DNA of 64,000 nt from Thuidium tamariscinum (lineage: Eukaryota; Streptophyta; Bryopsida; Hypnales; Thuidiaceae), in the NCBI GenBank assembly GCA_947034885.2, contig OX344749.2:37653682-37717681 (forward strand), given 5' to 3'. A model generated the notes under the pieces. The model searched no databases. It had not been told where the DNA came from and saw only the letters and a program-made list of their open reading frames with translations. Below are positions 10,200-61,200 of the stretch, piece by piece. The stretch's first letter is position 1; each line of letters begins with the position of its first letter. A program made the position numbers and the translations under genes.

Positions 10200-10205
10200 G
10201 ACAAT

Positions 10206-12269
10206 GTGGACGAGTCGTGGATGTCATGGTATGACTTCGCAGATCACAGTGTTCCACACGAAACGCATCAGCAGACATCAGTTCCACTTCCCAGCGGTGA
10301 CAGTCCTCAAGCGGAGCTGCAGGAATCTTCTCTTCCGATGGCCCCATCGACATCACAATATCCGATCGCATTCAAAAGCAAGCGAGGAGCTTGTGCTGTA
10401 GCACGTCATCGCTCTGTTCAAGACGTTGATGGAAGTAGGCCTAACGTCGAACATATCGAAGCACAGCCCAATGAATCACAGCGTAGTACTCGGAAGCACA
10501 AGGTCTGTCCTAGTCCTACACGACCGCCGCGATCAGAGACTGAACCCCATCCTGATGCACCCTCAGTGGACGGTCGAACCGATGTGGCCGATGAGCGCTT
10601 TCCCGTGAATGCCACCACCGGAACTGTCGATGCAGATCAGCCTCGGCGACGTGGAACCGGTGTCTGCCAATCCGCAGCTGCTGCTCGACTAGCATTTGTA
10701 GAAGAGTTCAGTGCGACGCATTGGAGGATTTGGAGCATGGCCAGGTCCACGTTCATTGAGCAACCTCCACCATTCACGGGACCGACTCCAGGACCTAACT
10801 TTCCGATCAACCGCATGCCCAGTAAGACATCCTTGTTTGGACGATTTTGGAGTGATCTCACGCTGAATCGCATTTGCGCTGATAGTAATCGCTATGCTAG
10901 TGAGGTGCCAACAGGGAGGAACATGGCGATCGGAGGCAGGAAGTGGTGGCCCCTCAACAAAGAAGAGCTGAAGGCATTCTTAGCTGTGAACCTTCTCATG
11001 GGCATAAAACGTCTTCCAAATCATAGAAGCTACTGGAACAAGCGGAATGAGTTCTTGTATTGTCCAAGCATCTCTTCCATAATGTCATGCCGTCGTTATG
11101 AAGATGTCACACGTTGCCTTCACATTGTTGATGACACTGTACCAATGCAGGCAGGTGACGATGCAGAGTTTGACAGATTGAAAAAAATGCGGTGGTTGGT
11201 CACAGAGATGAAGCAGCGCTTCAAGAGCAATTGGCAGTTGCATCAAGAAGTTACTATAGATGAGACAATGGTGCCCTACAAAGGCAAGTACTGCCCTGTT
11301 AGACAGTACATGCCAAGAAAGCCAACAAAATGGGGCGTTAAAGTCTGGTGTCTTGCAGATGCACGTCAGAAGTACATTTTTGATTTTCAAATCTATACAG
11401 GATCCCAATTCAGGGAGTCGTTGAGCGGTGGTCTGAGTAGAGACGCCAAAACTGGCCATGACGTAGTCCTGCAATTGATGGAGGGTCTACATGGCAGGTC
11501 ACATGTGGTGACAACGGATAACTTCTTCACGTCAATAAAATTACTGTTGCAGCTGCGCTCTCTTGGCACGTACGGTGTCAGAACGGTGCGGAACAACCGA
11601 CTAGGCTTGCCGCCTTGCTTCCAAGACATGAAGCGTCTGTCAAAGGAACCTCAGGGGACCTTGCACTGGCGAATGCATGCGGTTGCTGCCATTGCTTGTG
11701 TTGTATTCGTAAATCGGAAGGCTGTGAAGATGTTATCTACATTCTACCCGCCCATTCCTACAGATGATGAACAATGGCCCACAGTTCCACGACGCATCGA
11801 TGGAGAAGTGCAGGACTTGGAGACCTCTCCAATTCATAAAGGGTACTCTGACTTCATGCGAGGGGTCGATGTTGCAGACCACCTACGCGGGAGTTACACA
11901 TGCCAGAGTCGTAGCCACAAGTGGTGGCACAAGATTTTCTTCTATCTTGTGGATACGTCAATTGTGAACTGCTACATTTTGCATAAAGTTGCTTCTGAGC
12001 AGCTTGGCAAGAATGCAATGTCACATATGCAATTTCAATTTCATCTTGCAGATGAGTTGAGCCGACCGTGGAGACAAGAACGAGGTGCTGTTTCACAGTT
12101 TCGGTTGTCGTCGCCAGGAGTGCATGTGCTCGTCCGTTCCGATCGTCAACGTCAGTGTCGATACTGTCGAGGTGTAGTTCGAACGAGCATGATGTGTCCT
12201 CAGTGTGGCGGCATCTTCCTTCATACCGGCGACTGTTTCCAACGAAGTCACTATGCTTTGAGGAGCTGA
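10206..12269 (+). CDS. piggyBac transposase (DDE_Tnp_1_7)
   Basis: Cut-and-paste transposase. The frame is open from just after the TAG at 10197; the first ATG is at 10221, giving 682 residues. Counting from 10206, the three catalytic aspartates lie in TIDETMVPYKGK (D352), VVTTDNFFTS (D438) and MRGVDVADHL (D555), in the order and spacing of the piggyBac D-D-D triad. Between the first two lies QYMPRKPTKWGVKVWCLAD, a family hallmark. The C terminus has a cysteine-rich RING/PHD-like domain (CRYC, then CPQCGG, then a last C and H near residues 654-683), as used for end binding. The coding region shows no internal stop and ends in TGA. It sits centrally between the element's TTAA-flanked ends and is probably catalytically intact. 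Confidence 0.93.
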   Translation: MDESWMSWYDFADHSVPHETHQQTSVPLPSGDSPQAELQESSLPMAPSTSQYPIAFKSKRGACAVARHRSVQDVDGSRPNVEHIEAQPNESQRSTRKHKVCPSPTRPPRSETEPHPDAPSVDGRTDVADERFPVNATTGTVDADQPRRRGTGVCQSAAAARLAFVEEFSATHWRIWSMARSTFIEQPPPFTGPTPGPNFPINRMPSKTSLFGRFWSDLTLNRICADSNRYASEVPTGRNMAIGGRKWWPLNKEELKAFLAVNLLMGIKRLPNHRSYWNKRNEFLYCPSISSIMSCRRYEDVTRCLHIVDDTVPMQAGDDAEFDRLKKMRWLVTEMKQRFKSNWQLHQEVTIDETMVPYKGKYCPVRQYMPRKPTKWGVKVWCLADARQKYIFDFQIYTGSQFRESLSGGLSRDAKTGHDVVLQLMEGLHGRSHVVTTDNFFTSIKLLLQLRSLGTYGVRTVRNNRLGLPPCFQDMKRLSKEPQGTLHWRMHAVAAIACVVFVNRKAVKMLSTFYPPIPTDDEQWPTVPRRIDGEVQDLETSPIHKGYSDFMRGVDVADHLRGSYTCQSRSHKWWHKIFFYLVDTSIVNCYILHKVASEQLGKNAMSHMQFQFHLADELSRPWRQERGAVSQFRLSSPGVHVLVRSDRQRQCRYCRGVVRTSMMCPQCGGIFLHTGDCFQRSHYALRS

Positions 12270-19367: not shown

Positions 19368-22300
19368 TTACTCTTCATCTTCTGAAGATTCACCAATGTC
19401 CCGGTCGAACATAGGACCGTTGTCAGCTGCCACGTCGTTGAAAACTTCATGCATTTGAATGTTTCTTCCTCCCACATTTGGATTCGGATATGCATCTGCT
19501 ACATGAGTTGGCTCACGAAGGCCCTCAAAATCCACATTTCTTCCCATAGCAAACAATTCTGGCTCTTCACCCTCATCCACTTCACCATCAACTCTATGCC
19601 CTCTAACTTCAGTTCGTAGAACCACTTTCCACCCAGGTTCATCTTCATCATCCGAAAAGAATACCTGCTGACAATGAATTGGAAAAGCCAAAGACTCATA
19701 GCCAAAAGGTACAAGGGAGTTGAAATTGGCCATGGTAAAACCCCATTGATCTTTTTTGATTGTTGCATTCCTCCCCCTGTAGTTTGCCTTCACCCATTCA
19801 CAAACTAGAAGCACGACACAATGTCTTCCATAGTTCAATTCCACGATCTCTGAAATTTGCCCTATGTATTCAAGGTCTGCATTCACAACATTCTGATCTT
19901 GCCTTCCCGAACGACACGGTTGTCGAAAAATTGCAGCTACTCCTGAGTCACAAGTGCTATTCGAGTTGCCTTCTGCGCTCTTCACTCGAAAGTGATATCC
20001 ATATGCATACATGCTTCTGAACCTCCGGGCTTGTAGTGAAGGCAATTTAGAGGAGTCCTCCACATCTTCTGGAACTCTTAACCCTCCTTGAATTGCATTT
20101 TCTACTTCCATTTGAAGCCACTCTGAAAATATGGGAAGTTCTTCCATCCCAGGTGGAAATGGTGCCCCTCTTCTACCACTCCTGTGCGAATGTCGCCTTC
20201 GGAATTCTGTTCTGGCATTTGACCTATCCTGCCACATCTGTTGGTACCTCCTGTAATGCAATACACAGTTGTCATTGTACCCTTAATTACTTGAAGTCAA
20301 TCAAAAAATATAATTGTCCCCATCCTCTGCAAATTAGCCTATTCACTTACCTAAATCGACACACTCCAGAATTTGAAACTATATTAGCCCTCAGTTCCAG
20401 AAAATGGGCCTCCTGTGCATTGAAATTTTAAAGACACGCTCTTCCAACAGAAAGGAACAATTCTCTTTCTAGTGATCCATTATTCATGAGTACACGTAAA
20501 TATCACACATTGCACTTCAGTTCTTGAACTAAAGTAAATCCATATTCCACATTGCATGCTGCAGTGCTGCACTTAATAACAACCTAAATAGGCCTACTTC
20601 GTCTTTCAATAAAACTTGGGAAGTCACTTCCCCTTCTTCTGTCCAATTAGCAACCTTGCTATTCACCTTTTACACTCATGAATTACTGAACATCAAGTTA
20701 CATGAACTTCGAACTCGTAATGGCTTGTACTGCACATATTTCTCCATTACCCTATGAATGCTTCATATATATATTTTCCATTTAAAACCGTATCGTGAAA
20801 AATGGAAACTGTCCACATTCTTAGTTTACAGAACTTCTGAGGTGAATTACTGTACAGTGAAACGTGTGCTTCCCTGTTCATTCTTTCATGTCTTATTCGC
20901 CATCATACTACTTCCACTTAAATCACCTATACAACAGCTTCCCTATTCACAATGATGAAGTGCATAACAAAAAACAAAGAAATACTAAACATGAATTACT
21001 ATAAGCAAATGAAGTCAACACATCACTCCTCCACTTGCCCTAGTTACTATTCCCTTCCATCAAGTTCACTAATGGACTACCATTTGTCACTTTGAATCTA
21101 GAAATAAAATCTATCATGTTGTTCCCATATAACTTATTCCTGTTTTTCAAATAAAATGACAGAAACATAGTTTACTGTAAATCATTAAAACTAACTTCAG
21201 CTTCCAGGTTATTTTACACTGTCTTCCCCATATACACATGGCTCTTCCAATTTGAAGGACGATTACAATATTCACCCTTTCAGTACCAGGATTTTTTCAT
21301 AATTAGAAAAACAAAATGGAATCTGGAACATCTCCTATAAACCTTCTTCATTTTTCCCTTCATTAATTACCTCAGCTTTAATTATTCTTTTCAAAATTCA
21401 TTCTCAACCATTTCACCTTTGCATGTACCTGTTACTGTCCCTTACCAGATCATACAACAGTATTTGAATTTTGTGGTTCACTCAGTACTAGTTCCACAGC
21501 TTCTGAAAGCACAATAAATTCACTTACAATAACTGCTAAGGAATTCCACATCAATGACTCTCCTAAAATTACATGTGCAGCTTCATGGAATATGATAATA
21601 TCCAATACTATGAAATTTCACAATTATATTTTTAAAAAATAATGCAATCAAGAAAGTAAGGCAAAACAAACAAACAAAAATTCCCTTATTCTTCTGATGT
21701 TACCTCATAAAATTCAGTACACACCACCTTCAATTAAACTCTAGAAAGAAGCAATGCACTGGAAACAAATACATCACTTATTAATAGAAAAACAATAATG
21801 ACCTAGCCCAAAACTTCTTTGTTAGGCTGATACTTACTCGCGATATGGTTGAATGTGAGTGCCATTGTCCAACACGAACTCATGCATTGCTTGCCTCAAT
21901 TCCTCTGACAATAACCTCAGCTTCCCCTTCCCTTCTAAGATTTCATCAACCATTGTTGGGTCCTCCTTGTCATCCCAGACTCTTCTGGATGTCAGGTTGT
22001 AGTCTGCCATATATTCCGTGATGAACCCCAGGGCTTCCTCTGTTTGATAACCTTGCGCTATACTCCCTTCTGGTTTTGCAAGATTTCTTACATATCCTTT
22101 TAATGTCTTGAAGTACTGTTCATACGGGTACATCCACCTTGTATGAACTGGTCCGTATAAAAAAAGCTCTTCCACTAAGTGGTGTGGCATATGTGACATG
22201 ATGTCAAAAAAAGAAGGAGGCATCTCTTTCTCCAACAGACACATAGTTTCTGCTGAATCTTCAGTCAGCTGCTCCTTCTCATCAACATCCACTGTTTTGG

Positions 22301-25300
22301 CACACAGTTTTCGGAACACTCTGATGATACGAATAATGGCTGCCACCAAAGCTTTGTTTGAAACCTTACAAAAACACAATGGTAGAATTTGTTGTAAGAG
22401 AACATGAAAGTCATGCGACTTTAAACCACTCAGTTTTCCTTTGCTGATTTTCTTGTACAGTGCTGAAACATAATGGGTAGGCATCCTCAATTTCTTCAAC
22501 ACTTCAAGAACCTTCAACTTGTCTTCTGCTGACAGTACGTATGATGCATGCGGCATATGCAATCTATCACGATTTTCACCAATAGGCTGTAGGTGCAAGT
22601 GTGGTCTGATGCCCCGTGCTTGCATATCCGCTCTCACAGCCGCAGTATCTTTCTCACCAAAAGAGGTTCTCAATAAGTTCTCAGATATGTTCTTTTCGCA
22701 GTGCATTACGTCAAGAACATGCCGTACAAGAAGATTCTGGTAGGAAACAACAAAGGACAGCACACATCAGTTAATATTCAGTTACACAGCATGAAATGCA
22801 AATAAAAAAACCATCCATGATCCCCCTCCCCAAAAAATTATAGAAGTCCACAATCAATATACAAAATGCCTTATTGCACTACCAAAGACACAAGCAATGA
22901 TTACCTCCACTATAACTGTAGAACTGCCTTCCTCCATTCGACCAAAGGTTTCAGGATTCATAGACAAACAAAATACTTGACAGTCCCTCTACTACATGCA
23001 GAACCATTACTAAGGAATATATCATGTCATAGTTGGTTAAATTCCCCTTATTTCAGAACAGAGCATCCTCAAACAACCTAGGAACATCTTCCCCATGGTC
23101 CTATGTTATACACTTGGCTTCGCCTCAGTACTACATATTTTTGCACATGCACATCACTAAACTGATGCCTTCTTGATGACACCTAATTTGCATGGCCTAC
23201 TTCTATATGACTTTCTACAATTCATGACACATATGAAGGCTACCAGGCAGTCAACGTAGTCCACTTCACAGCTGCTATAATGCAATGGTAACTTTTTTTC
23301 CCTAAGTTATATGAGTTTAAGAATTATTATTGAGCACCAAGTAAAAAAAAAAATTAACTATGTTGACAAGAATCCTTTAAAACACTTCCCACCATCATCC
23401 AGGATGGATATATGGGAAAGTAAGTCAACTGAGGTCCTCCTAACATGATATGACTTCAATAGCATGTGGCTTCCTTGTTTTAAAAGAAAGAAAGGAAGAT
23501 TGCAGGACATTTGAACCCAACATTGTTACTCGCAATTTTGAGTAACAGCCTTCACATGGTTAATTCCTGGCTCTTGGAATTCACTCATAAAGTGCATTGT
23601 TTTCACATCCAAGCACTGATTTAACTTCTCAAGTGACCATTTTCCCACTTGGCAGTACCTGTATTCTTAACTTTCACGATGTGCTCTACCTAAAAATCAC
23701 ATGAACAATTGTAACCTCGATCGTTTCTTAAAAAAGAAAAAATCATACACCCTCACAATACTTGCAAAGTGCTAAGAACAGTTAAACAATTTTCAATGAA
23801 AGTGGAAGTTCTCACCTTCCAATAAGGAAGTTCAAAAAATATGCTGCAACGCTTCACGCCATGCCACTTCACAGGATCATCGTCAGAGTTCTCTAATCCA
23901 CCATTCCTCAAGAAATCCGATCTTCCTGTGCCCCATTGAAAAATCTCTTTTCCACTTGGTCTCTCTGGTGCTAGCAACCACTCCTGCTCGTTATTGAATG
24001 GTGCTCTTTCTCTGCGGAACCTATGGTCATTTGGCAAATAACGTCTACTACCCATGTATATCATCTTATTAAGCAACGCTGCATGTTCCGCGCAAGTCTC
24101 CGAACCACAGAGAGGGCACCCTTTGTACCCATGCACTTGTTGCCCAGATAGCAGGCCGTAGGCTGGAAAATCATTCACGGTCCACATCAAAATCGCTCGC
24201 AAAGTGAATGCTCTTTCACCTACAGGCTTTGACATATTCATAGCTGGAACCCCTGTCCACAGCTTCAACAAGTCTCGCACTAGGGGACGTAAGAAGACAT
24301 CTATGTTTTCAGCTGTGGGTGCTTTCGGTCCAGGGATCAAGACAGCAAGCGATATAAAAAATTTCTTGGTTAACAACCATGGTGGAAGGTTGTAGATGGT
24401 AATCAATAAAACCCACGTGGAATGCTTCACCACATTGTTTTTGAAGGGAATAATGCCATCTCCAACAAGACCAAGTCGTAAATTTGTTAAAACTTCTGCA
24501 AAATCAGGGTATGTACAATCTATAGCCTTCCATTGCTCACTGTCTGCAACGGACCGCATTTTATTATCCCTAGATTTGTTACTTGCATACCAGGTCATAT
24601 GCTTTGCGATTTCAGGACATTTAAACATCTTCACCAAGTGCTTGATCACATCAAAGTACCTGACAACTCGTTGCGGTACTTTATTCGAACCCTCAAGATA
24701 ACGTGGCGCCCTGCAAATTGGACATTCTTCAAGATCTTCATTTTCCTCTTCATACAATATATGCCCATCAGGACAGCAATGAACTTGTCTGTGGTTGAGT
24801 CCGAACTTCATCAACATGCTTTTTAACTCATATGAAGTGCGGGGAAAACAATTCGATGTGGGAAGCAAGTCTCTAGCTACCCATGTCAGCAGTGCGTCAA
24901 CAAAAGTGTGAGGGACCGAGTACAAGGTGCACAACGAAAATATAACTATGCAGCATTGCAGACGATTGAGGCTACTACCTTCAAATACTTTCTCCGTTGA
25001 CTGCCTTAACATATCCTCCAAATTCTGTTCATTGCACTCTTCATCCTCGTCATCGTCGTTGCCATAACCTCTTCCTACACCGTCGTCATCGACCACGCCA
25101 TTGTGAATCTCGTCAATGCGAATGAACGCATCTCTGGCCATGCTTTCAACATCCACGGTGTCAGCTTCAGGCCAAGTAAAATTCTCCCCTGCATCACCAT
25201 ACTCTGAGTTACGGTATGGCTCCTCTCTATCCGGGCTGCGAGCAGGACCCCGCACATTCCTTCCATCAACAGTCTGCATGCCGTCATTTCAGGTAAGTTA

Positions 25301-47935: not shown

Positions 47936-50070
47936 AAATGGAATGGTAGGGAGGCAAGTAGTGGATTACATCAGTCAAGCACTCTCAAAAGATTCTATAT
48001 TTTGGGAGCAAGTTAGGTAGTGTTTGGCTACCATGGGATTCTTCCTTGAATAATACTTTCATCAAGCATAGGACATCGAGGGGGACATAGTTGGGGACAA
48101 GGTTTACATTGTGCAATCACAGCCACAACCTTGAATTGAACAACTTTTTCCTTCTCTCTTTGACTTTTAAAGACAACTTTCATCTTAATTCTACCTGTGC
48201 TAGGACTTTAGATAATTATGCACTCGGGGTGGTAAATCTTGTAATACCTAGCCGACAATTTTGTAAGTTTGTTACCAAAATAGCTACACCGCGATTACTA
48301 GTTTTCCTTGGAGAGTTTCGAAAGGCAATTTAGAAATCACCTTCTCCAACCAATTCATGCACCTTTGAATTGTATCTCTTATTTGGATGTGCAAGTTGTG
48401 ATTTGTACAAAAGGATAATACATTGAAGTTACCAAATATAAGCACTCGATTACCCACCCATAGCAAACAAGCTAACACAACCACATTCTTATTTTTAAGC
48501 TCCTGAATTGGGTGTTTATGCGTTAGTCCATTATGATTTCCAAGAAATGAATCTTTATATAATTTTGTAAGCATTTAAGAGTTAAAAGAACCTTAATTTA
48601 TCCTAAATTAAGTTTGTAGTGATTTTTTTGGCCTCTAATTAGGTTGTTGTAATTATCTAGTCAAGTATTGATTATACTAAAGTTCAATGCATATTCTTAT
48701 AGATCATTTCCTACTCAATCAAGAATGGTAAGACTCAAGTTATTTGGACTTTCCTAGCAAAAGTTATGAGTGGATGAAGTTTGACAGCTAATCGATACTT
48801 CAAACTTCATCCATGGATTTCTACCACTTGGTAAACTAAAACTAGGAATTTTTTTCGCTTAAAAGTATTGATATTTTTTCTTTATCAATTTTACTCTACT
48901 TCTTGTACTTTTATTTTTTCTAACTATTTTTCATCCATTCTAATGCTTAAACTTCATCCAAACCTATCTTACTCGTTTTAAGTCCAAATTTCAAGTTTAA
49001 TATATTTTTAGAAAGCTAAAAAAAATTCCTTTGTTATTATCATTCTGTATCCAAGGGAAAAAAAATCTTATCTTCAACTACTGAATCACACTTCTAATTT
49101 GGGTCTTCTAAAAAAATTGTCCTACTTTGAAATTGTTTAAGTTACAAATGTTTCAAATTTTTACCTCAATGGATGGAGGAACTTGCATGTTGTTGTAAAT
49201 GTGTCCCTAATTTCCTTCATTTTTGATGGTTGAAACTCGTTTGGTATTTTTGCTCACCGCTTACAGATGAAAATTTTCTTACAACTTGTATGTCTAATTC
49301 ATATTTCCTTCCTATTTCTTCTATTGCAATTACATTATTGTATTACAAGTCAACACTTTGAAAAGTACCACGATAATGCTATTAAAATAATTGACCCTTA
49401 CCTCCTACAAGTCAATTATTTTTCTATCTTTAACTAATGGTTGGCAATAAACTTCTAAGATTTTAAGTCTAAATCCTATCTACTTCAAACCTTCTTCAAG
49501 GTTTGTATAAACTCCTTCAACCTTCATTTTATTTTCACAACTTCATTGCTTGAGTTTAGAAACTCACTACATAAGCTAGAAGAGTGAAAGAGTTGGTGAG
49601 TTAGTTGCTAAACCCTCCTTCCTAATTGAGGTCTAATGTTGCTAATTCTCTTCCTAATTCTTCTTCTAAATTCTCTTCAAATCTCTCTTTCTAATTCTTC
49701 TTCAATTCCTCTCTAAGTTTCTTCTCTAACCCTCTTTTTCTTCCACCTAATTTCTTCCTCCTTCTAATTTCTTTCTCCTCCCTTTAAATTTTCTCACTTT
49801 CTCTCCTTCTAATCCTCTTTTCTTCCTCCCTAATTTTCTTCACCTCCTTTTTAATTTTCCTTCCCAACTTTTTTTTTCTCTTCCTCACTCCTTCTTCCTC
49901 CTTCTAATTTTTTTTCCCCCTTAGAAATTTCTAAAAAAAACAAAAAACAAAAGCAAGAATTTAAATGGGGTGGGGTGGGGGATTAACTCCCCCACCCGGC
50001 CTAGAGTCTGCAGGCGGCTCTAAAGCCCCGGCCCCTGCCTCTCTAAACAGGCTGCGGGAAGCCCCTGACA
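47936..50070. other. AT-rich spacer with pyrimidine-rich tract
   Basis: No gene recognised. From about 49620 to 49920 the plus strand is almost pure pyrimidine (runs of TTCTTCTTC, CCTCC, CTAATT). Just before the palindrome there is a G-rich stretch GGGGTGGGGTGGGGG at about 49968. Confidence 0.45.
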
Positions 50071-53000
50071 CCCGGCTAGGGTGTACCAAAAGGGCCAAGC
50101 CCTAGTATACCGTAACATGTGCAGGTGACCTGCGGTCAAGCACGGGTGACCTCTGCTCAAGCGCAGGCCACCTGTAAATCAAAGTTGCTCCTATAGCCGC
50201 TCAATCTGAACAAATTTTTTTGAGGTGCCCGATATTTTCCATTCATCTATAAGATTGCGCCTGCAGCATGCAACCCCAAAACCGGCAGAGGTCCTGTCAA
50301 AAATCACCACTGCAGGGATGGGTGCCAGATCTGTAATGGGTGGTCCTACCTAAACCCCTAAACAACGTTTTTTGAGATTATAGATTTTTTGGGCAGCTCA
50401 CTACGGATGGAGTTTGTTTCTTTTTCCTTCGAAATTTTGATATAATGTGTGTCCAAGGAGTACCTTTAAGGCCCAAAAATTTTCATAACTTTTGACTTTG
50501 TGGATAAAAAGTTATGGCATGATATGTCACTTTGTTTCCTCGGCGGGCAGCCCGGGCAGCTGAAAAAACTTTTTCAAAAAAACTTTTTTTTGAAAAGTTA
50601 AATTTCAAATCGGTTCTTTAGGTTTATACAGACATGTGAAGCTTTGAATCAATCCATTCCGATCAATGAGTCAAAAGTTATGAAGATTTTAAGTTTGGGG
50701 TAGTTTGCGGCCAGTTACAGAATCTGCACAGCACAAAAAAAGTTTGAAATTCTTCATTTAATTCAATTTTTCATATTTTTGAAAAAAAATAAAAACAAAA
50801 GGTGTAGATTGTTTATTTCAACATTTTAACCATTGGGATTGAAAATTTTCAATTCCATGAATAAAATGTTCACAATTTAGTATTTTAGCTCATTTTTTAC
50901 TTCTTTCTACTTACTTATTTTTTCCTATATGTTGTACAATTCCAAATGGTTTGAAATTTTTTGAGAATGTAGCCAACTTACATTGAAGTAAGAATTCAAA
51001 GAATAACAACCATTTGGAATTTCTTTTCACACAAATGTGACCTTGTGAAGTACAGCTACCTGGATTTTCGTAGGGATAAAAAAACAGTTTTTGTCAATTC
51101 AAATGCTTATATCTTGCAATCTACATGGTGGAAATTTCTGAAATTTTTTCCACATGTTTACAAACCACCTTACTACAAGATCCTATGGTTTCATGAGTCA
51201 AAAATGTGTTTTAAAAAAAAATTGCTCTTGTATTAGAAATGGCAGTTTTAGAGCAGTTTTTTTTGGTGAAAACGTTGTTAGGGGTTTAGGGGTTAAGAAT
51301 TTAAGGGTTAAGAATAGGGCCTTTGCCCCGCCTTTGCTTCGTCGCCAGCCTTTGCACCCACTTCTATTGGAGTTATCGCCACTACATTCCTTTTTCGTGC
51401 TTAACCTGCTTTGCTTTCAATCGAGGTGTCCCACTCTCTCCTCCACGTTACGTCTTTACTGATTGCGGATCGCCAGCAAACATCGTTGGTGAATGATGTT
51501 TTTGCCATGACTGCTCCTTAATTTCTAGGGTTCGCCAGTCATTGTAGTTGTAAGGAAGCACTCTTTTTGCCAGGGTCTTTTAGATTGTACATTTGTGAAT
51601 TTATGCTCCACCTCCTGCAATTTCAATGTTGCTCATCAAGTGTAGCCCTTAGTGGTTTAAGTTGGTAGAAATGGCGTCTTTGTGCCTTCATGGACATAAT
51701 ATTTTGGGCATGCATCTTAAATTGTTGTTATTCCCTTTTCTTTCTGTCATGGTTGAAGTGTTCATCAGCTGGGTTTGGAAACTACACCACCGTTGTTTGT
51801 CTTTCTGTTTGGCATTTGCTTTTCCATATGCACACCCTGAAATTTGCTTCGTATACTAACAATTGTGTTTCATGGAGTCTGGGGAACAAGGATTTTGGTC
51901 AAGATGCACACTCAAATCAATTTGCACTTCTGTGCAGATCAAACTATGGAAGAATTTTGGATGCGCTTACAAGTGTAAGACGTGCAATGCTGTGGATAGT
52001 GTGGACGTTGCGTAGCTATTGAGGATAGAAGCCTACAACTTTCAAACCACGATGGAGAGGAGCTTGGCATTGAAGATGGTGGCTTAGGGCTTGGAAGCGA
52101 CGGAAAGGAGCTTGTTGTTGGCTCAGAAGGTGATACTTTATCATGTTCGTGATGTTTTTGAAATTGGAGCAAGTTTAAGCATTAGGGTACGATCATTGAA
52201 TCCTTATATTATGAGCCTTCATTGGAAGCCAACGCATTGCTTACACTTTGAATCATTTCACTATCACTATTTTGAACATTTTGCATTTTAAGTTTTCTCT
52301 TGTAGATATGGAAAGAAGTCAAAGAACATTCCCAGTTAACTTGATAGCAATGTTTTTCAAGTTTCAACTAGCTGCTGTTGAATTTTGTCAGAAAGTGGGA
52401 GTTCCTTGCGGGCTCTTCCGTTTCCATTCGCCAAGGTCGAAATCGAGTTCGTGTATCAGTCCCTGTAGCCATACTAAGCCTTCGTGGGTGTTGTTAAGGT
52501 TGATCGATTGTTTTTATTGTTGAATCATTATGTGCCAGGTCCGTGCGTGAAGTTGTTAAGGAGGAGCGAGCTTGCGCCATCAAAATTTGAAATTACAGGT
52601 GCGCAACGTTAAAATTCGAGTTCTTTGAGTCCCTTTTTTTGTGTTTGTTATGATTCTTTAATTCGTTTTTTAGGTTAAAGATAATGGTTGTTTAATGTTT
52701 TAAGTGTGAGCAATGGTTTCAAATAAAGACTTTGGTTTGAATTTAATAATTGAAACACGGTTGGATGTTGAGCCCTTGGTTGTTGGATAAAGATGGAGTG
52801 CTTATATTTATGAGCCTTCATTGGAAGCCAACGCATTGCTTACACTTTGAATCATTTCACTATCACTATCTTGAACAAAAGAAAACATATTATAATTTCT
52901 TATAACTTCCTACACTTGCTTTTTTTAAAACTAAATTTAGGAGGTTTTGAGAATGATACTTTTCACCTTATGCAATTTCTTGTAGTGTTTTTCTAAAGTT

Positions 53001-53619
53001 AATTTTTAATGTAAATGTTTGAAATTGCAGCGAAATGGATCCAACAGTGGACCCTCACATTTTAATACTACCGAAGAGTTGTAAAAAGCAAAAAGTGCAA
53101 CAATGGTATTGCACAATTTGCGTTGCCACACTTGTGGATGTCAAAGAACATGGACATGGGAAAGCCCATAGGCGTTTAGCAAAAATTCAAAATGTTTTGC
53201 AAGAACTGCAGCGTTCTAACATTGGTAGGAAAATTTTTACAGCTCTCTGCCTTAGTTCTAGTAGTTTTTGTATTTTAACAGTTGCTGAAAATGGTATACA
53301 TAATTATTTATAAGGAGTATTAGAAAAAAGACTGTACTGAAAATACAATTTTTGTTCAAATTATATCTACATTGTGAAAGTCTTCACTGTAATTCTATAT
53401 ATTTAGTTAGGAATGGGAAATTTAAAAAAAATTGAAGGCATTATTAAAAAAAAATTTCGTGCATTGTTTTTCTTTTCTACAAATTGGCAAGATAAAAGGA
53501 AGAAGGGATTTTATTGTTCAACTTGTGAAAAAACCCTACCGGTTCAAAGACGTGACTTACTCAACCATGCTGCAAAGCATAAGATTTACATTGAAGAATT
53601 GCCTATTCAAGTGACATCA
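50071..53619. repeat. Large palindrome, left arm (3.5 kb)
   Basis: Inverted copy of 55714-57723, about 97% identical where they pair (about 4 mismatches in a sampled 115 bp). The shared outer end reads TAGGGTGTACCAAAAGGGCC. This arm is longer because of two extra blocks: about 50354-51285, and about 600 bp between direct repeats near 52203-52274 and 52807-52875. It contains an inverted copy of the 5' exons of the dioxygenase gene. Confidence 0.9.
50354..51285. mobile_element. Extra 930-bp block in the left arm, with short inverted ends
   Basis: Absent from the right arm, where the flanks are fused (CCTACCTTAAGAATTTAAGG). Its ends are inverted: AAACCCCTAAACAACGTTTT on the left and AAACCCCTAACAACGTTTT as reverse complement on the right. 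The right ~150 bp resembles the repeat at 37471-37640 and 37767-37940. This suggests a non-autonomous mobile element that inserted after the palindrome formed; the exact target duplication is unclear. Confidence 0.6.
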
Positions 53620-53652
53620 GCATTGAAAGTGACGATAAAATGTGATAAATAA
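53031..53652 (+). pseudogene. Inverted partial copy of the dioxygenase gene (zinc-finger exons only)
   Basis: Exons 53031-53224 (ATG 53035) and 53411 onward match the minus-strand gene's first two coding exons with the same splice sites. The first zinc finger (WYCTICVATLVDV..HGHGKAH) is intact. The second (FYCSTCEKTLPVQRRDLLNH) is intact here thanks to a run of six A at about 53528-53533. Homology stops at 53619, where the palindrome centre begins; the frame then runs into TAA at 53650. Without the catalytic domain this copy could at most encode a short two-finger protein. Confidence 0.7.
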
Positions 53653-55713
53653 GAAAATAAAATTAAGAATGAAAAAATACAATGCCTTATAAATCTAATT
53701 GTACAATGAACTAATACATGCTTGATACATGCAATTATTTTTCACCCAATGATCAGCCCTAGTTGTTCTTAGACGATCTAATTTGATGCTACTCTTCATT
53801 CGTTCTGCATCATAATTCACTTCATTAAACCACCGAAGTAGTGACGCTTGTAAATGTAGCACTACACCAAGTTGTCCAGGTTGTCCAGTCGTTCTTGTAC
53901 AATGGCGAATTTCGCTTCCTTTAATGAGCATAACATCTCCTATTTGCGGCTTGAAAAAGCAACCTAACTCAGGTAAATAAAACCGCACGCCACTTCCATT
54001 CTCCAATGTACCTTTCAAAAATCCAAGCAAATCAATTCATAAAATTTATTTATATTTATGTGAGGTACATGCTAATAATGGAAATGAATTGTACAAACAC
54101 AAGAGTTTGGAACTTACCACTGCTACCAAGCCACAAGAAAAAACTATATGAAAAGTCATTGTCATCACAATGAGTGTTGACATTATAGTTTTTAGTCACT
54201 GAGAGATAGGAAAAAGGTGAGCCCCCAATGGAATTGTTGACGTTGGATTGCACGCCTTCTAATTCTCGGGCATTTTCCAAATGCATGAAAATTGAAGGAA
54301 AAAATCTTTGCAAACCCGTCACCATCATTCTTGCTAATCGCTCGGACCGGATGTAACAGTCTAAATTCCCATGTTTGTGCCTGTATACAATATAATACAA
54401 TTCAAATATATTTGAATAGTACAAAATTAAATTATTTACATCTTTGATTAATATGCATATAAAAAACCCTCTTCTAAAAAGAATTTTCCCTATTGAACCA
54501 GTATTCCCCTTCAAAGACAATCTGCATTTTTTTATAGGTTTCAACACTCTCAATGTATACCATGATTTTCTTAAAACTCAATACTCTTAGTAGCGTATAT
54601 AAAAAGTTCTAAAATTTGCAAGATTATAAAAACACTGGTAATGGAGAATAAGAGTTATGAGTCAAAAAGTAAAAAATAATGGAGACAAGAGTGCATTGAA
54701 AATGAAAATTCTCTAATTCTTGTCTTTAATTTAACCTCCTTAGACACGATTTTGCTCTACATAAAAAATCTTGATTCGTATTATCCTCATAAGTGGTCTG
54801 AAAGTGACAAAATATCTTGTTTATTAAACAATATTAGCAAATTCTTGCAACATTAATTGATACAACTAATTTGTGTATACAATATTATTAACAGGAAAAA
54901 AAATTTCCATCCTACACATTTCTTGCTTGACTTATGTTATAGTTGGATTCAGTACATTTTAATTCCATACTGGAGATGTTTAAAATTGAGCTCTTGTTTT
55001 TGCAGTATATCGATTTCTACTTAGCATTTTTTTGCAATTACAACATAACAATTCTAATTTTTTTTCCAAAATCTTCCTACACAATTTTCCCAATTCAAGA
55101 TTTAAACCTTTAAATTCTTCAGGGCAAAAAATTTTAGGTCAAAAGGTTTAAGTCTAAAATTCTAATACCACTGTGTTTCTTAAAAATAGTGTTTCCACTT
55201 TCAAAATAAATATTTTGCAATTTGTGTAGTTTGAACTGCTTAAATACATTCTATACATTTTCACTCTTCTTAGATGTAACATCTAACATTCAAGTGTGCA
55301 AATATAAAATTAATCTAAAAATTTAACTTTTTGCAATGCAAATGACTATTTCAACTCTTGTTTAGATGAAAAAAATTCCTCTTTGCTGGATTTAAAACTT
55401 ACCAAGCTAGTTTGCCGTACTTGAAGTGGTTACCAAAAGTAACCATTTGAGTTCCTCCTTTTTTTGCCCCTTGTTTTGTAGTGGCCGCAGTCTTCTCCAA
55501 CCATTGTGCTTCTTTAGTCATGAATTTCACTTCTTCCAATGTAAAAATTCCGTTTACAAGACGAACCAACTCTGCAAAGGGATCGTTCAAAGAAACGGGA
55601 GCATAAATTTGTTGAAGCTCATCATTTTCCGGAACATAGTGTTTCCAAAAATCTTGAGTTCGTACCAACTTTGAAACTTCATGCATCACACAACGAGCTG
55701 AGCCTACATACGT
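53620..55713. other. Palindrome centre (spacer), holding the dioxygenase catalytic exons
   Basis: About 2.1 kb present once. It carries the 3' exons of the minus-strand gene and AT-rich introns (notably 54381-55402). No other gene seen. Confidence 0.7.
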
Positions 55714-56297
55714 TGATGTCGCTTGAATAGGCAATTCTTCAATGTAAATCTTATGCTTTGCAGCATGGTTGAGTAAGTCACGTCTTTGAACCGGTAGGGT
55801 TTTTCACAAGTTGAACAATAAAATCCCTTCTTCCTTTTATCTTGCCAATTTGTAGAAAAGAAAAACAATGCACGAAATTTTTTTTTAATAATGCCTTCAA
55901 TTTTTTTTAAATTTCCCATTCCTAACTAAATATATAGAATTACAGTGAAGACTTTCACAATGTAGATATAATTTGAACAAAAATTGTATTTTCAGTACAG
56001 TCTTTTTTCTAATACTCCTTATAAATAATTATGTATACCATTTTCAGCAACTGTTAAAATACAAAAACTACTAGAACTAAGGCAGAGAGCTGTAAAAATT
56101 TTCCTACCAATGTTAGAACGCTGCAGTTCTTGCAAAACATTTTGGATTTTTGCTAAATGCCTATGGGCTTTCCCACGTCCATGTTCTTTGACATCCACAA
56201 GTGTGGCAACGCAAATTGTGCAATACCATTGTTGCACTTTTTGCTTTTTACAACTCTTCGGTAGTATTAAAATGTGAGGGTCCACTGTTGGATCCAT
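53695..56297 (-). CDS. Zinc-finger TET/JBP-like 2-oxoglutarate/Fe(II) dioxygenase, with a likely 1-nt frameshift
   Basis: Exons: 56301-56108 (ATG 56297), 55921-55403, 54380-54118 and 54011-53695 (TAG stop); all borders are GT/AG and in phase. N terminus: U1-like finger (CTIC...H-x5-H), then a second (CSTC...H-x3-H). Catalytic part: AWHKHGNLDCYIRSERLARM, then the metal-binding HxD in NVNTHCDDNDFSYSFFLWLG, then RFYLPELGCFFKPQIGDVML, then the distal histidine in GSEIRHCTRTTG. This order (HxD, a Gly-rich turn, LP.LG, GDV, H) matches the double-stranded beta-helix of the TET/JBP family, which oxidises methyl groups of pyrimidine bases in DNA. Exon 2 has five A at about 55800-55805 where the left-arm copy has six; this shifts the frame inside the second finger. 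The gene is therefore probably inactive as sequenced, or the base was lost in sequencing. Family call is from motifs only. Confidence 0.65.
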
Positions 56298-57723
56298 TTC
56301 GCTGCAATTTCAAACATTTACATTAAAAATTAACTTTAGAAAAACACTACAAGAAATTGCATAAGGTGAAAAGTATCATTCTCAAAACCTCCTAAATTTA
56401 GTTTTAAAAAAAGCAAGTGTAGGAAGTTATAAGAAATTATAATATGTTTTCTTTTGTTCAAGATAGTGATAGTGAAATGATTCAAAGTGTAAGCAATGCG
56501 TTGGCTTCCAATGAAGGCTCATAAATATAAGGATTCAATGATCATACCCTAGTGCTTAAACTTGCTCCAATTTCAAAAACATCACGAACATGATAAAGTA
56601 TCACCTTCTGAGCCAACAACAAGCTCCTTTCCGTCGCTTCCAAGCCCTAAGCCACCATCTTCAACGCCAAGCTCCTCTCCATCGTGGTTTGAAAGTTGTA
56701 GGCTTCTATCCTCAATAGCTACGCAACGTCCACACTATCCACAGCATTGCACGTCTTACACTTGTAAGCGCATCCAAAATTCTTCCATAGTTTGATCTGC
56801 ACAGAAGTGCAAATTGATTTGAGTGTGCATCTTGACCAAAATCCTTGTTCCCCAGACTCCATGAAACACAATTGTTAGTATACGAAGCAAATTTCAGGGT
56901 GTGCATATGGAAAAGCAAATGCCAAACAGAAAGACAAACAACGGTGGTGTAGTTTCCAAACCCAGCTGATGAACACTTCAACCATGACAGAAAGAAAAGG
57001 GAATAACAACAATTTAAGATGCATGCCCAAAATATTATGTCCATGAAGGCACAAAGACGCCATTTCTACCAACTTAAACCACTAAGGGCTACACTTGATG
57101 AGCAACATTGAAATTGCAGGAGGTGGAGCACAAATTCACAAATGTACAATCTAAAAGACCCTGGCAAAAAGAGTGCTTCCTTACAACTACAATGACTGGC
57201 GAACCCTAGAAATTAAGGAGCAGTCATGGCAAAAACATCATTCACCAACGATGTTTGCTGGCGATCCACAATCAGTAAAGACGTAACGTGGAGGAGAGAG
57301 TGGGACACCTCGATTGAAATCAAAGCAGGTTAAGCACAAAAAAGGAATGTAGTGGCGATAACTCCGATAGAAGTGGGTGCAAAGGTTGGCGACGAAGCAA
57401 AGGCGGGGCAAAGGCCCTATTCTTAACCCTTAAATTCTTAAGGTAGGACCACCCATTACAGATCTGGCACCCATCCCTGCAGTGGTGATTTTTGACAGGG
57501 CCTCTGCCGGTTTTGGGTCGCATGCTGCAGGCGCAGTCTTATAGATGAATGAAAAAATATCGGGCACCTCAAAAAAATTTGTTCAGATTGAGCGGCTATG
57601 GGAGCAACTTTGATTTGCAGGTGGCCTGCGCTTGAGTAGAGGTCACCCGTGCTCGACCGCAGGTCACCTGCACATGTTACGATATACTATGGCCTGGCCC
57701 TTTTGGTACACCCTACCCGGCTG
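55714..57723. repeat. Large palindrome, right arm (2.0 kb)
   Basis: Reverse complement of the left arm without its two extra blocks. It ends at TTTTGGTACACCCTACCCGG. Frames that appear on both strands of both arms (such as 56562-56795) mirror those in the left arm and are not independent genes. Confidence 0.9.
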
Positions 57724-58112
57724 AGGTCCGGTTGTCAAGCCCGGACCCCATAGGAGAGAACCCCCGGCTAGTTGGGGGGAGATCCCGACTTGAGCCCTTG
57801 CTGCAGGCGGACTACCTACCTGTCGACGGACTACCTGCTTGAGCTGGTTTTTATTTTAAATTTTAAATTTTTTTAAATTTTAAATTTTTTTAAATTTTTG
57901 ATTATTTTATTCTATTGTCTTGTTAATTAGCAATTCTTCTACCCACTAAACCAACTCATCTTTATATAACACAAAGTTTTTTTTTAAAACAAAACAAAAC
58001 AAAATACAACAAAACAAAATCTTCCAATCCACAATAATCTTCTATTTTCAACACCCAAAGAAACTAATACTTTCTACAATCGATAGAGATTCACGAGAAT
58101 TCCCCTTAGTTC

Positions 58113-58290
58113 AAAGCTTCGCCGTAGGAGGGAGAAATACAAAATTCTAAACAACTTCAAACAATAGGAAGTCAAAGCTTCGTCATGGTTTCTAAACAAC
58201 CTAAACTTCACAAATTCAAAGCTTCGCTGTGATTTGAACGAAAGAGACAGTAATCTCTAAATTAACTCATCGAAATTAAAGCTTCGCCGT
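58113..58290. repeat. Four dispersed AAAGCTTCG motifs
   Basis: AAAGCTTCGCCGT-like words start at 58113, 58174, 58219 and 58278 (spacing 61, 45 and 59). Sequence between copies is only weakly similar (AACTTCAAA, TTTCAAA). Possibly a degenerate tandem repeat. Confidence 0.5.
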
Positions 58291-61200
58291 TTCAAATGGG
58301 ACAAGGAAAATACTTAATAAAAAAAAACTCGTTGTTAGCGTACAACTATAGATGTTAGTACAACACAACACAAATATTAAAAACAAGTGAGAAACTTCAA
58401 ATATACCAAAGTTTAGTTGCTACAAGCTCTCCTAAGTAGCATCGCCATTCATAAAGGGAGGGGCTCTAGAATTAGTACAAGATACACTTTAAAACTCAAG
58501 AAAACTTTATCAATACTCTTTAACACATGTAAAGGAAGTTAGCAAACTTTGGAGGGACCCCAATGTCCTTCAAAGTTTAACAACACACACTAAGAGGGAG
58601 CTTGAAATGCTCCAAAACGCACGCGCTTGCAACTTTGGCTCAAACTTAACTAAAAAGTCAAAATTATTGGACCAATATGTATTGTGCCAAAATTTTGGCT
58701 ACAAAATGGTTTAAGGGGTGAGTTGAGAAAGAAATAGGTGCCCATTTATACTCTTTATAAGGGCACCCACCTCCTTTCAATTTCGTGTGGTAAACTTATC
58801 ATTTAGGATTCTCATCCTAATCCAATCATTTTTAATTTTCTACACTAAACCTGGGACTATACGTGTCATGTGACTGCGGGTACTGGATTTGTGAGTGGCG
58901 AGAGATTTGGCGATTTGGTTCCGTGCTTTAGATGTGCATGAGTTTTGTATGCGGTGTTGAATTCTCAGTTTTTTTCATAATTCTTGAAAAGGGCATCGCC
59001 CAGGAGACTTATTTCGCATTTGATCAATATTTGGACCAGCTCATGCAATTATCTTCACTACAATAGCGCTACTGTAAAGAAGTACAGTAGTGATACTCTT
59101 GAATTTGGCACCGTCTGGATTATGTTCTTCACAGTATGATCAAAAGCATTGGTCATACTTAAACCGAGTGTCCTTGCTCTACTTTAACGGGTTACCAAAT
59201 TGTAATGATCGGACTTTCCATCTCAAACGACCAAGGCTCATAATTCCAAAACACATGCTCTGATGTTTCAATCCAAGAAATGGGCCATTGAAACTTCCTT
59301 CCTTCAATGGGCATTATGAATAATAGAGAGACTAGTGGAATCCTCACCATTCGTGATGGGATTGGGGGAGATAATAGCTCCTTTTACAAAGAGCAGACAA
59401 ATTACCAAGGCATCTTACTTTGAAAACTTGCCAAGCATTGCCTATGTGTATATAACATTAGTCTAAATTATTAACCGTTGAAAAAAGGATAATGCTTCTT
59501 TAGATGCGTGGGAGGGAATTCAATTATAATATGGAGAGAACCATTGGCTCACTTGAAAGTTACTACATTAGTGTTGTTATTTGTAACTTTTGGAGTTTGA
59601 CTCCAAATCACAAACGGATTGTGCCATTGGCTTTAGAAGGCCATTTTTTCTATAGGGTACCCTCCACCCCCAATTCATCTACTAACAACTCAACAAAATC
59701 CAATGCTAGATTAACGACCAAATAGGGTAAAAATCCAACTTTGGGAGGTTGACTTTTCTATGAAAAATAACTAGCCTAGGGTCTCTAGTAGGTTTGAGGG
59801 AGTAAGAAAACACCTAACTTGGGCCCCATTTTGATGTCGTATACACCCGTAACGCTAGTCAACTTTTTCGTAATATTTTAAAATTCTCAATTCGGAGATG
59901 AACTCTTTAATTTGGATACTTACCGCTATCAAAATGTCTTGAAACTTGTTGGAGATCTTTATTAACATAAAAAAAAATCCTAATTTTAAGTAGGATTTTA
60001 CCGCAATCTAGATAATTTTTATGAATTTTCCGTTGAAATTTGAAACGATTGACCATTTGGAAAGGCATCTTCTGAGTATCAGAAACTTTTGAAACTTTTT
60101 GTGGGACCTCCCATGAGATTCCACAAAAAATGTGTAAGACCACATCTGGACTCTACACAATTGTCGAAGGAGAAATAAATCATGTTCCATTATTTAATTC
60201 CCGGGCTCCAGGGAACCTTCCACAAAAGAGGAATCTTGACAAAGTGACTTTGCCATTGATCTCCTAGCATAGTTTTAATCCAAGAACACCGTCCTTCAAC
60301 CATAGATTCCCTTCATAGAGTCACCATAACAAAATCCATCTTGTAAGTTAAAAATTGGGGTTTCTACTAAATGTAGAAAATAGTTGCAAACATAAAATCT
60401 ATCCAAAGAACTAGACTCTAAGAATTGTTTATATTCTTAGGACCTAATTTTAGACAATAATTGTCACATGCAAGGTAGATGAGGCTATTTTGGGACTTCA
60501 AACAAAAGATGGGTATTATTGAGGTTTTAACCTATTTACAGTTGGGACTCAGACCTAAATGAATAAAAACACTAGAAATATGATCAAATACTATATTGGC
60601 ACGTCACATACCTATTTTGATTTTACACTCTTCTGGAGGTTTTTTGCACTATTTTATACACTATATTTTACAAAACAAAACAAAACAAACAAACTGTAAG
60701 TTCAAAATGATGAATTTGGGGCACACACTAAACCTTCACTCTACACCTTCATGCTCTTAAGCCATATGTAATTGTACAAGTTGAAAGCAATAAGCTTCAG
60801 AAAACAAGAAATTTCTACATCCTATACTACTTTCAATTATACAAGGTTGAAGCTAAAAAACAAGAAATCTACACCTTTGATTAGTACAATAATCATCTTT
60901 TTATTCACTATCAACTTTAGAGTAGTCCAAGCAATAAGAATGAACATGAAAAAGTTGCTTGTATGGATAGTGTGTGACAAGATGAAAAGAAAATTGAGAT
61001 AGGAAGGTTTCAAGTTACAATATATCATATTGAGATAACAAGGTTTTGGCTATTGTTGCCAGAATCTTCCCAAATTATCACGTACTTGATAACCACTACA
61101 CGAAACTACCCTCCAACTTTGAAATGTCTTTGAGGTGGATTGCACCCATATTAATTTGGTGGTAGTAATAAATTCTTTAAGTTTTTCTATCTCATCCCTA

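Follow-up and report, generated by a model that had tools for sequence, protein, structure and literature searches.

A probable IS3EU/GingerRoot-type palindromic transposon with a CMD1-like TET/JBP gene in the moss Thuidium tamariscinum

A window of 64,000 nucleotides from the genome of the moss Thuidium tamariscinum (C1:37653682-37717681) contains a palindromic element that carries a spliced gene of the TET/JBP type. We propose, with a probability of about 0.6, that this element is a non-autonomous palindromic transposon of the IS3EU/GingerRoot kind that was moved in trans, that its CMD1-like TET/JBP enzyme once counteracted silencing, and that it is now a relic. Positions without a contig prefix follow the numbering of the window, and the genome searched comprises 363 Mb in 19 contigs. 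It has 10 chlorophyll a/b-binding matches at E<=1e-40. For one of these proteins, among the best 60 of 63 PDB rows, the top single-domain matches are 8htu and 7xqp (455 bits; Physcomitrium photosystem I), followed by other chains from 440 bits downward and by 6kac (Chlamydomonas) at 398, while two chains of a long multi-LHC entry, 9vfj, score higher. This pattern points to a land plant and probably to a bryophyte.

Ends, copies and architecture of the element

The limits of the element, 50077 and 57715, were fixed by a genome search for its end TAGGGTGTACCAAAAGGGCC (Table 1). An earlier note on this DNA had described a palindrome of 7.6 kb at 50071-57723. Its arms and unique centre were verified, and the exact ends lie inside that interval. 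The inverted arms (50069-53619 against 55714-57723) pair at 94-99% in blocks. A genome search with the 286-bp terminal inverted repeat (TIR) region (50069-50354) gave eight matches, four of which are near full length, two in each of two elements. The remaining four short matches (L015-L018) were rejected as family copies and belong to an unrelated repeat of about 1 kb.

The second element, at C2:46265303-46282077, has the same ends and a target duplication of its own, GGAGGG. The search for other genomic copies had been set beforehand to expose a one-off duplication. The two copies have common palindrome breakpoints, 53619/55714 corresponding to C2 46267984/46275928. Since the C2 copy shares these breakpoints and has its own duplication, the element is mobile and not a fold-back artefact, which bears out the earlier description of a mobile element with very long inverted ends. 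Identity between the two copies is 92-99% across aligned pieces and 95.5% in the longest piece, which spans 4,316 columns. The C2 copy is enlarged by a 5.8-kb retrotransposon within the catalytic exon, which appears to be Ty3/gypsy-like judging from its open frames, by a 3.6-kb insert, and by a near-perfect hairpin of about 100 nt inserted in one arm (C2 46266085-46266183). In the window copy the left arm is longer than the right because it gained a nested 938-bp insert and retained a block of about 0.6 kb between direct repeats (52195-52278 and 52793-52877); the block is present in three of the four arms and missing from the right arm. Part of the nested insert is 70-73% like the internal portion of the related elements A and B introduced below.

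Because the breakpoints are shared, the palindrome predates the split of the copies. With later inserts excluded, the arms differ at 25/2000 and 39/2580 positions within elements and by 2.98-3.49% between elements (59/1979, 66/1978, 89/2577 and 90/2576). Two arms stand against two at 38 sites: 36 pair the arms by element, two pair left with left, and none pairs them crosswise. An alignment that retained the inserts gave 36 sites by element, three by arm and one crosswise. The simplest reading of these sequences is that arm-to-arm conversion homogenises the arms, and formation of the palindrome twice at one breakpoint appears less likely.

Table 1. Features of the palindromic element (window numbering)
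Feature	Position	Strand	Basis or remark
Complete element, 7,639 bp, TAGGGTGTACC...GGTACACCCTA	50077..57715		exact 20-bp TIR ends; C2 copy shares the ends and has its own duplication
Left target-site duplication, CCCGGC	50071..50076		identical to 57716-57721
Right target-site duplication, CCCGGC	57716..57721		identical to 50071-50076
Left arm, outer part (TIR)	50077..50354	+	94.4% against 57438-57723, 287 columns
Nested 938-bp insert, left arm	50355..51292		missing from the other three arms (two copies)
Left arm, inner part	51293..53619	+	98.9-99.0% complementarity with blocks of the right arm
Left-arm copy of exon 1, first finger	53035..53224	+	inverted copy
Left-arm copy of exon 2 start, second finger	53492..53652	+	open; stop just beyond arm boundary
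Unique centre, 2,094 bp	53620..55713		between inverted arms
Exon 4: LPELG, GDV, distal His, terminal stop	53695..54011	-	GT..AG and frame
Exon 3: HxD motif	54118..54380	-	GT..AG and frame
Exon 2: second finger with N-terminal portion of the enzyme; frame break within finger 2	55403..55840	-	GT..AG and frame
Right arm	55714..57715	-	inverted counterpart of left arm
Exon 1: from ATG, first finger	56108..56297	-	GT..AG and frame
Right arm, outer part (TIR)	57438..57715	-	pairs with left outer arm

Relatives and superfamily

From further TIR pairs three elements were retrieved, and these were examined together with the window and C2 copies. Element A (C3:13503958-13511885) is flanked on both sides by CTGTTG and element D (C3:44689683-44702797) by CCCAGG, while the duplication of element B (C3:2087454-2094332) matches at five of six bases. 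A 6-bp target duplication is thus exact in four of the five elements. All five have the termini TAGGG..CCCTA, that is, TA..TA ends. Compared with the left end of the window element, the first 28 bp of the TIR agree at 23/28 positions at both ends of A, at 25/28 at both ends of D, and at 20 and 23 at the two ends of B.

Element D encodes an rva_4 (PF24764) integrase-core domain (E=1e-33). Across the genome, 22 rva_4 matches at E<=1e-4 merge to 16 loci, and eight of these have a TIR-like site (46 sites with at most three mismatches) within 15 kb, where 0.06 would be expected. By class of mismatch, from exact to three, the sites beside a transposase number 0/5, 4/8, 2/9 and 3/24; four of the five exact sites belong to the two palindromes. 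The window element itself gave no rva_4 match at E<=1e-4 in the six-frame genome-wide search. Neither a transposase nor an alpha-kinase was found among the 16 open reading frames scanned of the 37 in 49000-59000, and a search of solved structures with the transposase domain returned nothing at E<=1.

Elements of the IS3EU superfamily have TA..TA ends and usually 6-bp duplications, and GingerRoot elements have 6-bp duplications, as stated in the part of PMC10045372 drawn on here. The 6-bp duplications, the TA..TA ends and the rva_4 transposase in the same-ended relative D point to IS3EU/GingerRoot as the probable kin of the window element. They displace the parallel with KDZ elements that the earlier note had drawn. 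KDZ membership was rejected on the 6-bp duplications, an 8-bp reading being exact in the window copy and mismatched at C2; Zisupton duplications measure 8 bp in the portion of PMC12730594 used.

Among other superfamilies, hAT elements can have TAGGG ends, as in Ac, and make an 8-bp duplication. The hAT assignment was also rejected, since an 8-bp duplication suits the window copy but is mismatched in the C2 copy, while a 6-bp one is exact in 4/5 elements.

A second gene is common to A and D (43% identity over 170 residues, E=4e-47, and 28% over 230, E=1e-27), and A and B match at the DNA level in its region. The protein of D terminates in a HECT-like domain (E=9.6e-15); the corresponding match in A, 0.0065, is below the cut-off. 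Element D (L054, L055) may thus carry an E3 ligase, with a HECT-like ubiquitin-ligase domain, within an rva_4 transposon.

The spliced gene and its state

The exons were placed from DNA alone, by GT..AG boundaries and reading frame. The spliced gene has all the catalytic motifs that had been attributed to it, namely HxD (as HCD), LPELG, GDV and the distal His, and the inverted copy of its finger half is indeed present in the opposite arm. That copy gives a finger-only product of 116 aa, provided that it is spliced like the right-arm copy. The two fingers had been called U1-like zinc fingers. Their Cys/His pattern was confirmed; the profile matches are weak and below cut-offs (DUF6487 0.0011, CoiA_N 0.0019, zf-DBF 0.015, zf-C2H2_4 0.016), and a match in the PDB, to ZMAT2 (0.061), is also weak.

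The sole frame break in the otherwise open window gene is a one-base length difference in a run of A in finger 2. It sits in the finger copy that continues into the catalytic exons and is absent from the left arm and from both C2 arms; it could alternatively be a sequencing error. In the C2 copy the gene is disrupted by stops, by a 4-base deletion and by the retrotransposon. Both copies are broken relics, and the suggestion that the element alters host methylation is unsupported as a present-day action.

Likeness of the enzyme to TET/JBP proteins and CMD1

The Tet_JBP profile of Pfam, whose use had been recommended as a check, matches the protein at E=5e-5, with a score of 23 bits that does not reach the curated gathering score of 34.9. 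The same profile gave no match at E<=0.5 in four scrambled controls (one reversed, three shuffled). A family alignment of eight rows, the window protein included, was assembled into a profile; six of the eight rows match Tet_JBP at E<=0.01, the best at 2.8e-6. When the single protein was searched against the PDB with phmmer, CMD1 was the sole match at E<=10 (E=2.5e-4). The family profile found CMD1 at 3.7e-10 and NgTET1 at 0.026 and 0.036, with nothing further, and TET2 in particular unmatched, in the PDB at E<=10. Judged from these searches, the nearest solved relative is the algal CMD1 and not a canonical TET.

The HxD...H iron ligands are present in TET order and align with H345, D347 and H397 of CMD1; residue numbers were counted along the printed alignment from H345 and agree with the residue letters of PMC7854593. 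The window protein is identical to CMD1 at S335, T337, V342, H345, D347, D350, W358, F371, H397, T399 and S414, and differs at I356 (Phe), R410 (His), F416 (Leu) and R418 (Trp). The portion of PMC7854593 consulted names ten residues of CMD1 that contact vitamin C. Eight of them are aligned and seven of the eight are identical (S335, T337, V342, W358, F371, T399 and S414), I356 being Phe. According to the same portion, Trp358 occupies the space of the TET arginine and helps explain the inability of CMD1 to use 2-oxoglutarate. Trp stands at this place in 7/8 family rows. The place of NgTET1 Arg289 is Gln in the window protein and, in the seven rows covered, is Gln in five, Met in two and Arg in none.

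Use of ascorbate by the enzyme of the element is a fair hypothesis rather than a result. It is suggested by the retention of Trp358 and most of the vitamin-C contacts and by the absence of the 2-oxoglutarate arginine. Besides the low Tet_JBP score, several features of the alignment weigh against the proposal. R244 and H249 of CMD1 lie beyond the alignment; F416, which stacks on the base, and R418, which reads it, align with Leu and Trp, while D350 is kept, and Phe stands at the F416 place in four of the six family rows covered. The paralogs have Val at V342 in 3/7 readable rows and Ser at S335 in 5/8. Moreover, R410 of CMD1 aligns with the TET arginine and is directed away from the site, as the excerpt of PMC7854593 describes, so a missing arginine alone is no proof of ascorbate use.

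Viral relatives were also sought, and one scan across viral contigs yielded none. Residues 122-265 of the catalytic protein (a 326-aa piece) match an unnamed phage protein family of PHROGs, phrog_24024, at E=6.2e-6; a second match is weak (0.14).

The TET-like family in the host genome

The catalytic protein has 109 matches in the genome at E<=1. At E<=8.1e-4, after exon hits were merged and weaker ones omitted, they correspond to 46 TET-like places, among which mirrored pairs (possible artefacts) are counted twice. The two palindromes are the only ones of the 46 with a TIR-like site inside 15 kb, and all 46 are more than 50 kb away from any rva_4 locus. The TET-like gene is consequently cargo of the palindrome family, and in this genome the superfamily does not regularly include it.

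The TET/JBP-like family is large, and its dispersed copies are 95-98% alike in shared blocks. Multi-copy genes (L048-L051) have blocks in common and differ in their ends. The tblastn matches of several paralogs are interrupted near the two window intron places, which suggests common intron positions; others are uninterrupted (for example C11:14043601). Uninterrupted frames with a finger-like N-terminus are found in C11:14043601, C11:17395224, C2:47053822 and C5:20124232, and by protein in C3:3479375. Another palindrome, at C8:12550831-12555924 (L058), has TET-like coding segments in both of its 2,106-bp arms, which are 99.95% identical; it could be genuine or could result from fold-back during assembly. 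Inverted TET-like pairs also occur in mirrored stretches on C7 (about 19.89-19.94 Mb) and C5 (about 6.71-6.74 Mb; L061/L062 and L065/L066). Of the four mirrored stretches tested, these two are 100% identical over 2,001 bases and the other two are not; the identical ones are possibly assembly artefacts.

Proposed mechanism and alternative explanations

Movement in trans is presumed because the element has no rva_4 match; the rva_4 transposase of its relatives would act on the common ends. The two N-terminal fingers would guide the enzyme to DNA, where it would flip out and modify 5-methylcytosine, in the element or close to it, and thereby lift silencing. With the 2-oxoglutarate arginine gone and most of the vitamin-C pocket retained, the likeliest reaction would be CMD1-like, with ascorbate as co-substrate and 5-glyceryl-methylcytosine (5gmC) or a similar mark as product. 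The palindrome would hold two like promoter and finger ends pointing inward, their likeness maintained by arm-to-arm conversion. A more far-reaching version, in which this is a land-plant transposon family with a vitamin-C-dependent, finger-directed hypermodification enzyme of the CMD1 type that served against silencing within a self-homogenising palindrome, a strategy not known to us from earlier descriptions, seems to us rather unlikely.

Some genomic results speak against the proposal as a whole. The reversed control pattern gave 24+23=47 matches against 23+23=46 for the TIR pattern, and the proximity comparison concerns TIR-pattern sites only. Many TIR-like sites with three mismatches are chance matches, since the reversed pattern matches equally often. 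Exon differences between the copies (34/976, counted from the frame break on) are not below those of the introns (26/1128) and thus give no sign of selection on the enzyme after the copies split. The distance of all 46 TET-like places from rva_4 loci counts on the same side.

Two alternatives to the role proposed for the cargo are plausible minority readings. The enzyme may be an ordinary 2-oxoglutarate TET that makes 5-hydroxymethylcytosine, 5-formylcytosine or 5-carboxylcytosine, as is supposed in fungi, its likeness to CMD1 reflecting ancestry only. The Tet_JBP match, the alignment of HxD and the distal His in the NgTET1 matches of the family profile, and the fungal precedent in the part of PMC12730594 used here agree with this; the arginine that holds the C5 carboxylate, which is Gln or Met in 7/7 covered rows, and the Trp at the W358 place in 7/8 argue against it. 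With similar, limited likelihood, the gene may be a hitchhiking piece of a host family within a foldback carrier that has no use for the enzyme. Only 2/46 TET-like places lie beside these ends, and purifying selection is not visible between two broken copies, although with two broken copies only the selection test has low power. Moreover, the gene lies inside the ends with its introns and both fingers, and TET genes are carried by IS3EU elements in several fungal species (excerpt of PMC12730594).

Other alternatives concern the palindrome itself. Inward transcription of both arms could silence the family through hairpin or double-stranded RNA, a parallel being Mu killer of maize. The presence of the same inward-facing finger exons in arms about 99% alike would suit such a role; selection would not favour the spread of a self-silencing element, yet two loci were reached, and we think this explanation improbable. 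Far less credible still is an assembly fold-back or a one-off inverted segmental duplication. The assembly does contain 100%-identical mirrored stretches (2/4 tested, three locus pairs) and the C8 palindrome, but the arms of the window element differ by 1.25% and by indels, and the breakpoints recur identically at a second locus, with target duplications at both. On the second copy, the target duplications and the diverged arms this origin was rejected.

Comparison with known systems

TET-carrying transposons are already known in fungi (PMC12730594), and the window element adds a plant, palindromic, CMD1-like form. The fungal TET-carrying IS3EU elements described there have 6-bp duplications, TA..TA ends and TET/JBP cargo in common with the window element. 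Rust IS3EU families end in TAYGG..CCRTA, whereas the third base of the window element is G (TAGGG..CCCTA). In the fungal elements TET lies between the transposase and alpha-kinase genes, while the window element has no rva_4 match, is palindromic and resides in a green plant. GingerRoot of Selaginella lepidophylla, as presented in the part of PMC10045372 used, resembles it in the 6-bp duplications, the TA..TA ends and the integrase-like transposase, here in the same-ended relative. The IS3EU and GingerRoot descriptions in that part mention neither TET cargo nor a palindrome; relative D has the HECT-like gene in addition.

The likeness to CMD1 of Chlamydomonas (PDB 7cy4-7cy8; PMC7854593, in part) covers H345, D347, H397, D350 and the seven of eight aligned vitamin-C contacts. 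In contrast to CMD1, the window enzyme lacks F416 and R418, has two finger-like motifs at its N-terminus, is transposon-borne and is known from sequence alone. NgTET1 and human TET2 have the same HxD...H order (aligned to NgTET1 only); the window enzyme differs in the missing 2-oxoglutarate arginine, and its profile match to NgTET1 is weaker.

A 2014 report is said to have linked TET/JBP genes and KDZ elements in fungi. A TET/JBP gene in a DNA transposon is common to both systems, and the 6-bp duplication sets the window element apart from the 8 bp of Zisupton. In foldback elements a short centre is enclosed by very long inverted arms. In contrast to them, the window element has assigned ends, a superfamily and a coding cargo that spans an arm into the centre.

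No plant transposon with TET/JBP cargo was found in the best-matching open-access titles and abstracts, and literature searches of open-access sources found no plant, palindromic, CMD1-like TET-carrying IS3EU element. The element suggests that enzyme-borne rewriting of host DNA marks may extend to plant transposons. If so, the transposon-carried tools for cytosine marks known from fungi would extend to green plants, and 5gmC-like bases would be indicated in plants outside the green algae. Conversion-maintained palindromes occur on sex chromosomes; a palindrome kept alike by conversion inside a mobile element would offer a small and clean system for study.

Other elements in the window

The window contains two other transposon-related loci. 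A piggyBac-type transposase is encoded at 10200-12266 on the plus strand (DDE_Tnp_1_7, E=1.2e-73). CACTA-type genes lie at 19371-25288 on the minus strand, with matches to Transposase_21 (E=1.5e-64), DUF4218 (E=2.9e-31) and DUF4216 (E=6.9e-8).

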